A DNA stretch of 64,000 nt from Halorussus salilacus (GTDB lineage: Archaea > Halobacteriota > Halobacteria > Halobacteriales > Haladaptataceae). The notes under the pieces were generated by a model. It was given only the letters and a program-made list of their open reading frames with translations, had not been told where the DNA came from and did not search any database. Shown piece after piece: positions 26,608 through 33,560 of this stretch. The stretch is taken from assembly GCF_024138125.1 (NCBI RefSeq), contig NZ_CP099993.1, forward strand, positions 1,798,001 to 1,862,000. Reading direction: 5' to 3'. The translations under genes were made by a program, and so were the position numbers. Within the stretch, counting starts at the first letter, position 1; every line of letters starts with the position of its first letter.

Positions 26608-26638
26608 TCTCCGTGCCTGTACACTCGATGTGAGTATC

Positions 26639-26893
26639 ATGAGTACTGTTACCGCCGATGGAACGATGGAACGGGTGTTCTCGGCCGTCGCAAAGGTCAC
26701 ACAACTACTCGGAGTGGTAACCATCCTCGTCGGCCCCCTTCTGACCGCCGATTCGGTGTATCCGGTTCTGCCCACCGACCTCGCTACGTTGTTGGCGGGC
26801 GGTGCTGCGATTCTGGCAGGAAGCAATTACTTCCGCGTGGAAGCGCTGAAGGCCCGGATGGACCGGAACTCTCAGACCTCACGCGACCGATAA
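26639..26893 (+). CDS. Small two-helix membrane protein of the atpB-atpD cassette
   Basis: 84 aa from MSTVTADGTMERVF; a GTG at 26630 would add three residues and could be a leaderless start. There are two hydrophobic segments, VTQLLGVVTILVGPLL (about 19-35) and TDLATLLAGGAAILAGS (about 45-62), then a charged tail (RVEALKARMDRNSQ). I do not recognise a family. Small two- or three-helix proteins often serve as immunity proteins beside hydrophobic bacteriocins, so that role is worth testing, but there is no direct evidence. It is convergent with the Yip1 gene. Confidence 0.65.
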   Translation: MSTVTADGTMERVFSAVAKVTQLLGVVTILVGPLLTADSVYPVLPTDLATLLAGGAAILAGSNYFRVEALKARMDRNSQTSRDR

Positions 26894-26933: not shown

Positions 26934-27557
26934 TCACAGAAGCTGGAACGCGTTCCAAGCGATGTTGGCCGCCGTCGGGATCGCGACGACCAGCCCGGCC
27001 TCCCGAAGTGTGATGTTGCGAGCGTGGTGGACCGCGAACACCCAGATCAGCGCTTGCCAGGCGAGAATGACGACTCCCACGATGCTCGCGATCTCCAGTG
27101 CTGGGTGCGACTGGTACTCCTGTATGAACGCCTGTAATTCTAATCCTGCGGGTACCGATTGAATCGCGTACCATGTGAGAACGAGACTGGCAATCGCACT
27201 GAACCCCGCGGGAAAGTATCCCCACCCGACGAAGCGGAAGAGTTGCCGAAACGTTCCCGACCCGTCGAACGCGATCGAGAGCGCGTAAAATACAGCGGTG
27301 AACAAGAGCCAAAGGATGAAGATACCCACGACTCCGAATATTGAACCGAATATCCCGGATACGGCGAGGAAGGTGTTAGCCAGCGACTGTCCTTCGACTC
27401 GGACGTGTGAAATCAACAGTACCGAACTGAAGATGTTGAGGAGGGCTACCCCGAATACGATAAGTACCGGCTTTCTCAGTGACGGGTCGTCGCCCCGCGT
27501 CCGATAGAACTCGTCCGGATTCACGCAGAGTTCTCGGATATCTCGTATGAAACTCAT
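26934..27557 (-). CDS. Yip1-domain membrane protein
   Basis: 207 aa. An N-terminal amphipathic segment (VNPDEFYRTRGDDPSLRKP) is followed by five predicted helices, among them FGSIFGVVGIFILWLLFTAV and SIVGVVILAWQALIWVFAV. The pattern (NPDEFY, then helices with FRFVGWGYFPAG) is that of archaeal Yip1 domain proteins of unknown function. It is transcribed away from the two glycine-rich peptide genes, and the 189-bp divergent gap is AT-rich. Confidence 0.78.
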   Translation of the reverse strand: MSFIRDIRELCVNPDEFYRTRGDDPSLRKPVLIVFGVALLNIFSSVLLISHVRVEGQSLANTFLAVSGIFGSIFGVVGIFILWLLFTAVFYALSIAFDGSGTFRQLFRFVGWGYFPAGFSAIASLVLTWYAIQSVPAGLELQAFIQEYQSHPALEIASIVGVVILAWQALIWVFAVHHARNITLREAGLVVAIPTAANIAWNAFQLL

Positions 27558-27746: not shown

Positions 27747-28028
27747 ATGAAATCGAACCGTACCCTGGTTACGATCGGTCTCGCACTGATGTTGATCACT
27801 GCCGGTGCAGGCGTCGCCGTTGGTGCGCAGGCAGAGGCGAACGTCATGGGAGGTATCGGTGTTGCGTCCGGTCAGTGGGGCGCCGGAACCGCTGCCGGAA
27901 TGGCCGGTGTCGGTGCCGGTGGTGGTGCAGTCGCTGGCGCAGGCGTCGGGACGGCCATCTTCCCGGGCGTCGGAACCGGTACCGGTGCCGCCGTGGGTGG
28001 TGCCGCTGGTGGCATCGCAGGCGCGTAA
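27747..28028 (+). CDS. Glycine-zipper secreted peptide 1
   Basis: 93 aa. A signal peptide (LVTIGLALMLITAGAGVAVG) ends near AQAEA at about residue 31. The remaining 62 residues are built of Gly, Ala, Val and Thr with no charged residue (GVGTAIFPGVGTGTGAAVGG). This is striking in a haloarchaeon, where proteins are acidic. The GxxxG spacing suggests a membrane-inserting or self-assembling peptide. It is paralogous to the next gene: both have the same layout, and GIAGA occurs near both C-termini. It lies 5' of a SpoIIM/DUF95 gene. A bacteriocin-like role is inferred; a surface or structural peptide is the alternative. Confidence 0.7.
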   Translation: MKSNRTLVTIGLALMLITAGAGVAVGAQAEANVMGGIGVASGQWGAGTAAGMAGVGAGGGAVAGAGVGTAIFPGVGTGTGAAVGGAAGGIAGA

Positions 28029-28182
28029 CACGCTCGTTCACCGCTTCTATCACGTATTTATCACGTTGCCTCGGTTTCCTTTGCCGCTCGTTCCGCCTTT
28101 TCGACCTAAATACACTAACGGTGTTAACCTAGTTCAACGGGAATGATTCCTGACGATGATATAATTCCTCGACGAGTAAGTA

Positions 28183-28190
28183 GATAAAAT
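28183..28190 (+). promoter_or_regulatory. TATA box of glycine-zipper peptide 2
   Basis: The element gataaaat lies about 33 bp before the ATG at 28220, so peptide 2 probably has its own promoter and is not only read through from peptide 1. Confidence 0.55.
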
Positions 28191-28219
28191 ACTCGGTGGA
28201 TACGAGAAGAAGACGCACC

Positions 28220-28492
28220 ATGATGCGAAAAACCATCGCGGTCGGATTGGCTATAGTGCTGATTACCGGATTGGCGGGCGCCGCGGCAGGTGCAGGAACG
28301 TCGGGTAACGTCGCCGCTGGCGCTGCTGCTGCATACACGGGTGACGGTGTCGTCGCAACCGCTGCTGGCGGCGCAGCCGCAGGTGGTGTGCTCGCGGGTG
28401 CCGCGGCAGTCGGCTTCATGGGCGGCGGTCCGGTCGGTGCTGGCTACGCTGCTGGTCAGTCCACCGGTATCGCTGGTGCAGCGGGCGTCTAA
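28220..28492 (+). CDS. Glycine-zipper secreted peptide 2
   Basis: 90 aa (two adjacent ATGs). The signal peptide is TIAVGLAIVLITGLAGAAAG. A mature part of about 64 residues has one charged residue (GDG) and is almost all Ala/Gly (TAAGGAAAGGVLAGAAAVGF). The protein ends TGIAGAAGV, close to the end of peptide 1 (GGIAGA). It has its own TATA box and is followed 57 bp later by the SpoIIM gene. Two-peptide bacteriocins come as such pairs, but here this is only an analogy. Confidence 0.7.
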   Translation: MMRKTIAVGLAIVLITGLAGAAAGAGTSGNVAAGAAAAYTGDGVVATAAGGAAAGGVLAGAAAVGFMGGGPVGAGYAAGQSTGIAGAAGV

Positions 28493-28549: not shown

Positions 28550-29113
28550 ATGAAAGATAGACTTCCCGACGAGTTCGAAGCGTTAGTGCTTCCGTTCGGT
28601 CTGAGTACGCTTCTTTTTGCTCTTTCGATGACTCTCGGATTCCTCACTGCTCGAACGGCTTCCGACGAATCCCTGGGTTCGTTTGGTCCATCGGCAAAAG
28701 CGAGTCATCTGGACTTCGTTGGTATCGTGTTGAACAATACCTTCGTGCTCGTCGCCATCGTACTTGGTTCGGTAACGTTCGGTCTCACGGCCATGTTCCT
28801 GTTGTACACTACCGGGGCCGCACTCGGGTCGGCCGTTCGGATCGCACTCGAACAGGGGTTCGACCCCCTGACGGTCGGTCTTCTGGTCGTTCCCCACGGT
28901 GTTCTCGAACTCCCGGCGTTCTTTCTCGCTTCCGCCATCGGATTCGATACCGCGTGGGGGATTATCGCCTATTTGCGTGGGAGTCGTGACCGGCCCTTGA
29001 CGGCTGAACGTGCGTGGCGATATGCCGAACTGATACTCGTTGCATTTGGATTGATAATCGTAGCCGCGTGGGTCGAGGCGGCCGTCACCATCCCTTACGC
29101 CAGAGGATTGTAA
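28550..29113 (+). CDS. SpoIIM/DUF95 family membrane protein
   Basis: 187 aa with about five helices (LVAIVLGSVTFGLTAMFLLY, AELILVAFGLIIVAAWVEA). The family signature VPHGVLELPAFFLAS lies at about residues 107-121. DUF95 proteins are the hallmark accessory membrane proteins of circular bacteriocin clusters, where they act in maturation and immunity. They also exist elsewhere with unknown roles. Its place directly after two small hydrophobic secreted peptides makes the bacteriocin context likely. A weak TATA (ctgtaaat) lies 25 bp before the ATG. Confidence 0.85.
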   Translation: MKDRLPDEFEALVLPFGLSTLLFALSMTLGFLTARTASDESLGSFGPSAKASHLDFVGIVLNNTFVLVAIVLGSVTFGLTAMFLLYTTGAALGSAVRIALEQGFDPLTVGLLVVPHGVLELPAFFLASAIGFDTAWGIIAYLRGSRDRPLTAERAWRYAELILVAFGLIIVAAWVEAAVTIPYARGL

Positions 29114-29151: not shown

Positions 29152-29970
29152 ATGACGTATAGAAAATCCAGTATTTTTATGGAAAGAGAGGCACGAAAAA
29201 GAGAGCAGACGGCTACGTCGATTCTGTCCTGTATCGGTGGGAGCGAACACCGCTGGCAGATCCTCTCGCTCCTCGGCGAGGGCGAGTACGAGGTCCGACA
29301 AATCGAATCGGAGCTCGACGTTCCGAGAACGACGCTTCGTCACAACATCAAAAAGATGGAGGAACGGGGACTCGTAGAGGAGACTCCGAAACGAAAGTAT
29401 CGGCTCACGCCACTGGGACGGGCGACGCAGGAAGGTCTAGAAACCTATCACTCGTACGTTAGTACCACTCTTCATCTCGACCCGCTGTTTTCCTGTATCT
29501 CGTACGAATCGTTCGAGGGGAATATCGGTTCGCTCAGGGATGCGAATCTCACAGTCGCTAGTTCCGTGCGACCTCACGCACCCAGTCAACGCTTCTTCGA
29601 ACTGATCTCGGAGGCCACTCGAACTATCGGGCTCCTCACCTCACTCCCGCTGACAGAAGACCAGTTCCGAACGGTTCTGTCGGACGAGCAGTCTCGTCTT
29701 GAACTTCTGTTCACCGAAGAGATCGCCCGCGTGTTCGAGGAGGAGTTCTCCTTCCTCGACGAAAACGGCGGCGAATCGCCCGAGACGTCATTCTGGACGG
29801 TGGACCGTGACGCGGAGTTCACACTTGCGGTGGTGGACGAAACCGTCGTGATACTCGCGCTCGACGGTCGGGACAAACCTCACGTCCTCGTCGAAACGGA
29901 CAACGACGCCTGTCGGTCGTGGGCAATGCAGGAGTTCGAGACGTACCGTGAGAGCGCCACACCATACTAG
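29152..29970 (+). CDS. ArsR-type HTH regulator with FilR1-like middle domain
   Basis: 272 aa. A winged HTH spans about residues 22-98 (HRWQILSLLGEGEYEVRQIE, then RTTLRHNIKKMEERGLVEET). A FilR1 middle-like domain follows (LTVASSVRPHAPSQRFFELI at about 128). It probably controls the peptide and SpoIIM genes just upstream, because it ends the cassette and shares its lower GC. The ligand is unknown. Confidence 0.82.
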   Translation: MTYRKSSIFMEREARKREQTATSILSCIGGSEHRWQILSLLGEGEYEVRQIESELDVPRTTLRHNIKKMEERGLVEETPKRKYRLTPLGRATQEGLETYHSYVSTTLHLDPLFSCISYESFEGNIGSLRDANLTVASSVRPHAPSQRFFELISEATRTIGLLTSLPLTEDQFRTVLSDEQSRLELLFTEEIARVFEEEFSFLDENGGESPETSFWTVDRDAEFTLAVVDETVVILALDGRDKPHVLVETDNDACRSWAMQEFETYRESATPY

Positions 29971-33310: not shown

Positions 33311-33397
33311 CGAACGGCGTTTTGTGCTGTCGTCCCTTCCGTCGTCTCGGTGATGTCCGTCAGCGCGAAGCTAGCTATCTCCGGTACCTATGAGGGC

Positions 33398-33544
33398 CGC
33401 ACCGCACAGCACCGCGACCGCACCGCACAGCACCGCGACCGCACCGCACAGCACCGCGACCGCACCGCACAGCACCGCGACCGCACCGCACAGCACCGCG
33501 ACCGCACTGCACAGCACCGCGACCGCACTGCACAGCACCGCGCC
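33398..33544 (+). repeat. Minisatellite, seven 21-bp units
   Basis: Seven head-to-tail copies of cgcaccgcacagcaccgcga plus one base. Copies 1-5 are identical, and copies 6 and 7 carry a C-to-T change at the sixth base (copy 7 also differs at its end). The unit is a multiple of three, so it reads as RTAQHRD, but there is no gene context. There are no spacers, so it is not a CRISPR array. Confidence 0.95.
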
Positions 33545-33560
33545 CCGTACCTCCCCGCGT

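Follow-up and report, generated by a model that had tools for sequence, protein, structure and literature searches.

Two short peptide genes, here called pep1 and pep2, lie within an island of ~3.5 kb that separates atpB from atpD in the A-type ATPase operon and has a GC content of 56-58% as against ~66% around it. The window, that is the whole 64-kb stretch of haloarchaeal DNA analysed, spans C1:1798001-1862000 of genome G000 and carries the following features at this site:

26630..26893, + strand: small hydrophobic protein of 84-87 aa with about two transmembrane segments, from ORF and hydropathy
26934..27557, - strand: Yip1-domain membrane protein (PF04893, E=1.1e-20), divergent from the peptide genes
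27747..28028, + strand: pep1 precursor, 93 aa
28183..28193, + strand: TATA-like AGATAAAATAC, found by eye, ~28 nt 5' of the pep2 ATG
28220..28492, + strand: pep2 precursor, 90 aa from the ATG at 28220
28550..29113, + strand: SpoIIM/DUF95 membrane protein (PF01944, E=2.6e-22), 57 bp 3' of pep2
29152..29970, + strand: winged-helix HTH regulator (FilR1 middle domain PF08350, 3.1e-17; HVO_A0261 N-domain PF25213, 4e-14)

Both peptide reading frames had been proposed in an earlier note on this DNA and are present; a GTG at 28196 offers an alternative start for pep2 that would add 8 residues. Each precursor begins with a short basic stretch followed by a single hydrophobic segment, which hydropathy places at residues 7-25 in pep1 and 6-24 in pep2. 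The 68 and 66 residues that follow, respectively, are 65% Gly+Ala in both cases, and the putative cores comprise ~64-68 residues of Gly/Ala/Val in pep1 and ~63-66 Gly/Ala-rich residues in pep2. The sole charged residue past the hydrophobic segment is E30 in pep1 and one Asp in pep2, so that the earlier count of one charge for pep2 is correct, while the description of pep1 as free of charge applies only if the precursor is cleaved after AQAEA. The TATA box claimed for pep2 corresponds, by inspection only, to AGATAAAATAC, the spacing of which would fit a leaderless pep2 transcript. The acidic protein surroundings reported for the locus are likewise apparent in the adjoining ATPase proteins (D+E 18-31% except for the small membrane subunit, K+R 5-15%). 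When pep2 alone was modelled with AlphaFold2, three helices (3-38, 45-65 and 72-89) were predicted at low confidence (mean pLDDT 57.5), a model that would suit membrane peptides of many kinds and is not specific for the multi-helix saposin-like fold of circular bacteriocin cores.

The two sequence arguments on which the earlier note had leaned, GxxxG spacing and a common GIAGA motif, mostly restate composition, as shuffling revealed. GxxxG occurs 12 times in pep1 as compared with 8.2 in shuffles, a weak excess (p=0.037), and 6 times in pep2 as compared with 5.1, which is no excess (p=0.41); some common 5-mer such as GIAGA is found in 74% of shuffled pep1/pep2 pairs. The common layout of the two peptides fared better in one part than in the other: their leaders are alike beyond chance (0/2000 shuffles reach the observed value), whereas the similarity of the mature parts is at shuffle level (p=0.60). 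We therefore regard pep1 and pep2 as related through the leader. Two unlike peptides at one locus would probably have arisen by duplication of a leader-bearing gene and subsequent divergence of the core. These results also bear on the idea that pep1 and pep2 form an unmodified two-component linear bacteriocin held together by GxxxG helix contacts. Adjacent Gly-rich ORFs of <100 aa with GxxxG serve as a criterion for two-peptide bacteriocins (PMC13289728), and the two genes have just this appearance. Nevertheless, we consider such a pair improbable: GxxxG is not clearly enriched beyond composition, and the leaders are signal-like hydrophobic segments without a double-glycine motif.

Sequence searches with the peptides themselves did not assign them to a family. 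No bacteriocin family model in Pfam or NCBIfam was matched, comparisons with PHROGs and PDB sequences returned empty or chance matches, and a search of 391 genomes of the class yielded low-complexity matches within long open frames and nothing else. The small two-transmembrane protein at 26630..26893 has no Pfam or NCBIfam match either; by analogy it may be the counterpart of the small transmembrane protein found between peptide and SpoIIM elsewhere, and its assignment to the cassette should accordingly be read as putative.

In 9/17 congeners the gap between atpB and atpD measures just 139-248 bp, in the remaining 8/17 no atpB lies within ~1.5 kb upstream of atpD, and a SpoIIM gene was detectable in 0/17. 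The junction resembles a recurrent cargo site in the genus (L073-L077, L079, L083, L086); where atpB is not within 1.5 kb, the congeners read carry other genes upstream of atpD, such as a rhodopsin-like gene, PKD-like secreted proteins or an acidic enzyme-like gene, as judged by eye. Elsewhere in the window, a tandem repeat at 33380-33560, which reads RTAQHRD or HSTATAP depending on the frame, precedes an SDR-type gene and is probably a non-coding array.

The combination of genes in the window is not unique. Its order, a Yip1 gene (in many cases divergent), a leader peptide rich in Gly/Ala, in most cases a small transmembrane protein and then SpoIIM, recurs at ten further loci, of which one lies in the same genome, eight are spread over five more haloarchaeal genomes and one is on a Methanomethylovorans plasmid:

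L049, G000:C1:1066669-1067601 (L049:6670-7602): second cassette in the same genome as the window
L050, L051 and two in tandem in L197, genome G199: four peptide-bearing cassettes
L055, genome G391: peptide-bearing cassette
L057, genome G192: peptide-bearing cassette, found with a relaxed criterion
L066, genome G185: peptide-bearing cassette
L068, genome G218: peptide-bearing cassette, no Yip1 detected
L202:2763-3561, Methanomethylovorans hollandica plasmid pMETHO01: two near-identical hydrophobic peptides of 66 aa, then SpoIIM

Yip1 is present at 10/11 peptide-bearing loci (9/10 outside the window), small transmembrane proteins occur in most cassettes, and the cassette SpoIIM proteins measure 170-207 aa. 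A homologue of the FilR1-type regulator of the window also follows SpoIIM in L050, and on pMETHO01 Yip1 and an EarA-like regulator are divergent from the peptide pair, a layout close to that of the window; the M. hollandica peptides are a candidate methanogen circular bacteriocin. Outside the class, no peptides were found at the inspected Yip1 loci except for M. hollandica. The Yip1 locus of a Halosolutus plasmid (L234) was rejected as a cassette: it has no SpoIIM, and its neighbour is an 81-aa protein with two transmembrane segments. Contig C1 of G199 holds five cassette-type SpoIIM genes in ~46 kb, four of them with peptides; the fifth (L050:7201-7752) has a small transmembrane neighbour and no detected peptide. 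The L049 peptide carries two Cys near its C-terminus (ACGAGPGGC), unlike pep1 and pep2, and in L064 (genome G205) an apparent degenerate peptide remnant is seen.

Most cassettes contain a single peptide gene, and the sole other pair, that of M. hollandica, consists of near-identical copies. The two-component reading thereby loses further ground. Large structural proteins with homologous pieces, which the note had named as evidence against its proposal, were not seen; the relatives are stand-alone small ORFs.

We surveyed ~100 SpoIIM loci in the class, with further loci added from a profile search, and looked in 938 kb of DNA around ~100 SpoIIM genes for ORFs that satisfy a criterion set by the window peptides (50-160 aa, G+A >30%, hydrophobic >52%, charged <13%, G >10%). 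As caveats, this criterion, although used uniformly across the loci, replaced a less strict initial one, and the inspection of second SpoIIM copies was what brought several cassettes to light. Only 11 such ORFs occur in the 938 kb, and in eight cases a cassette SpoIIM follows within 350 bp. The ~90 other SpoIIM genes encode fused or stand-alone proteins of ~200-240 aa and have no ORF of this kind within 350 bp; at L159 and L163 an unrelated hydrophobic ORF lies ~925 bp from SpoIIM. When 65 SpoIIM domains were placed in a tree, the 13 cassette sequences all came to lie on the same side of one branch (support 74, with long-branch warnings), a degree of clustering reached by 0/500 label shuffles. 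The SpoIIM of the window groups with those of the other cassettes in both profile and tree. Overall, the peptide pair exceeds chance, as ORFs of this composition are rare and clustered at SpoIIM genes. The genomic context is the strong part of the evidence, the picture of Gly polymers with GxxxG given in the earlier note the weak part.

This context points to head-to-tail circular bacteriocins. In bacteria, the gene clusters for these peptides are defined as a class by SpoIIM, a protein previously named DUF95 (PMC13289728); Yip1 is a frequent constituent, and the clusters typically also encode hydrophobic or immunity proteins (PMC8659200). Without the DUF95 protein, mature leucocyclicin Q builds up inside the cells (reported in PMC7132975). 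In Bacillus, clusters with several precursor genes exist, each under a separate promoter. The haloarchaeal cassettes share with the AS-48, leucocyclicin Q and circularin/uberolysin clusters a small, hydrophobic, leader-bearing precursor, SpoIIM/DUF95, a small hydrophobic protein, in many cases Yip1 and sometimes several precursor genes. The precursors are small (the bacterial limit is ~120 aa) and combine a putatively cleaved N-terminal leader and a hydrophobic core, the length of which falls in the 58-70 aa range of bacterial circular bacteriocins; SpoIIM (PF01944) is encoded with the precursor in the window and in the ten other cassettes. No protease or cyclase is present in the cassette, and none has been identified for bacterial circular bacteriocins. 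The bacteriocin direction suggested in the earlier note is accordingly strengthened in its circular variant by SpoIIM/DUF95, Yip1 and ten recurrences and weakened as regards a two-component pair, since SpoIIM marks a different class.

There are, however, clear differences. Bacterial circular clusters include an ABC ATPase, and none was found in the 64-kb window or at nine cassette loci by a scan for Walker A and signature motif that gave control matches elsewhere. The archaeal cores are Gly-rich, neutral to slightly acidic and without sequence similarity to bacterial circular bacteriocins, the regulator is of the FilR1 type, the hosts are archaea, and ring closure would have to be assumed here. 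Non-cationic cores, the missing ABC ATPase and the lack of a family match count against the circular-bacteriocin reading. Because of the latter two points we do not file the cassette as a proven member of the class; by analogy, it probably works like a circular bacteriocin system and is a variant of this kind.

Related proteins have been placed in another context. Makarova and colleagues described membrane cassettes of archaea in which SpoIIM and Yip1 families occur, and proposed for them a role in remodelling membranes or in defence at the membrane (PMC5898192, PMC4158269). The cassettes of Makarova et al. (arCOG01994/arCOG01996, arCOG02054, arCOG09673) are similar in that Yip1 and SpoIIM-like proteins are combined with fast-evolving small membrane proteins, but they stem from Archaeoglobi, Methanococci and Thermococci, and the available part of the text mentions neither Gly-rich leader peptides nor haloarchaea. 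SpoIIM, Yip1 and the small transmembrane protein could accordingly form a membrane-remodelling or stress complex with the Gly-rich peptides as its small membrane subunits or as effectors within the producer itself rather than as weapons. The proposed role of such proteins in remodelling or vesicle formation together with variable small membrane proteins (PMC5898192) is in line with this, as are three haloarchaeal SpoIIM-Yip1 pairs without peptides (L053, L059, L060). We nevertheless regard it as unlikely. The peptides have diverged past alignment across cassettes while their partner proteins are still recognisable, the distribution is patchy, one genome has four copies, and one cassette resides on a plasmid, all of which fits conflict genes better than housekeeping genes. 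Furthermore, most SpoIIM loci and the inspected methanogen Yip1 loci lack such peptides. A role as self-assembling surface or matrix peptides or as secreted signalling peptides would agree with the signal-like leaders, the low-charge Gly-rich cores and the regulator of their own. It is the least probable of the readings considered here, as the loci read showed no association with surface, sheath or sensor genes, SpoIIM, Yip1 and the small transmembrane protein would be left unexplained, and the peptides are strongly diverged.

With some reserve, we favour a reading of pep1 and pep2 as archaeocin precursors: their products would be antimicrobial peptides of hydrophobic, glycine-rich character, and a mobile circular-bacteriocin-type cassette would serve to make, export and tolerate them; the patchy distribution and the empty site in congeners are counted in favour of an antagonistic-peptide cassette. 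The leader would be cleaved off, the ends of the core might be joined head to tail, and SpoIIM, Yip1 and the small transmembrane protein would export the peptide and/or confer immunity on the producer. The released peptide would enter the membranes of competing haloarchaea and permeabilize them, with leakage and killing as the consequence, and the HTH regulator would govern expression of the cassette. More tentatively, the cassettes might represent an archaeal family of head-to-tail circular antimicrobials with uncharged Gly-rich rings fit for high salt, for which SpoIIM, Yip1 and the small transmembrane protein handle export and tolerance without a dedicated ABC transporter and which has spread between haloarchaea and methanogen plasmids.

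Haloarchaea secrete antagonistic peptides, the halocins (e.g. halocin C8), which are thus a comparable class. They differ in that no family model matched pep1 or pep2 and that the literature searched gave no link between halocins and SpoIIM/Yip1. Nor are cassettes of haloarchaea that resemble those of circular bacteriocins described in the same literature, although a 2019 mBio survey of archaeal antimicrobial peptides (Makarova et al.) may mention part of them. Known antimicrobial peptides of archaea are few, and the literature searched contains no circular one. Pep1 and pep2 are good candidates for archaeal antimicrobial peptides and more interesting than first stated. Their near-uncharged cores would suit activity in molar salt, which screens the electrostatic attraction exploited by cationic bacteriocins. 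SpoIIM, Yip1 and a leader peptide together form a clear genomic signature that opens a route to finding many more, and a cassette free of an ABC transporter raises the question of what role SpoIIM and Yip1 themselves play in handling circular bacteriocins.
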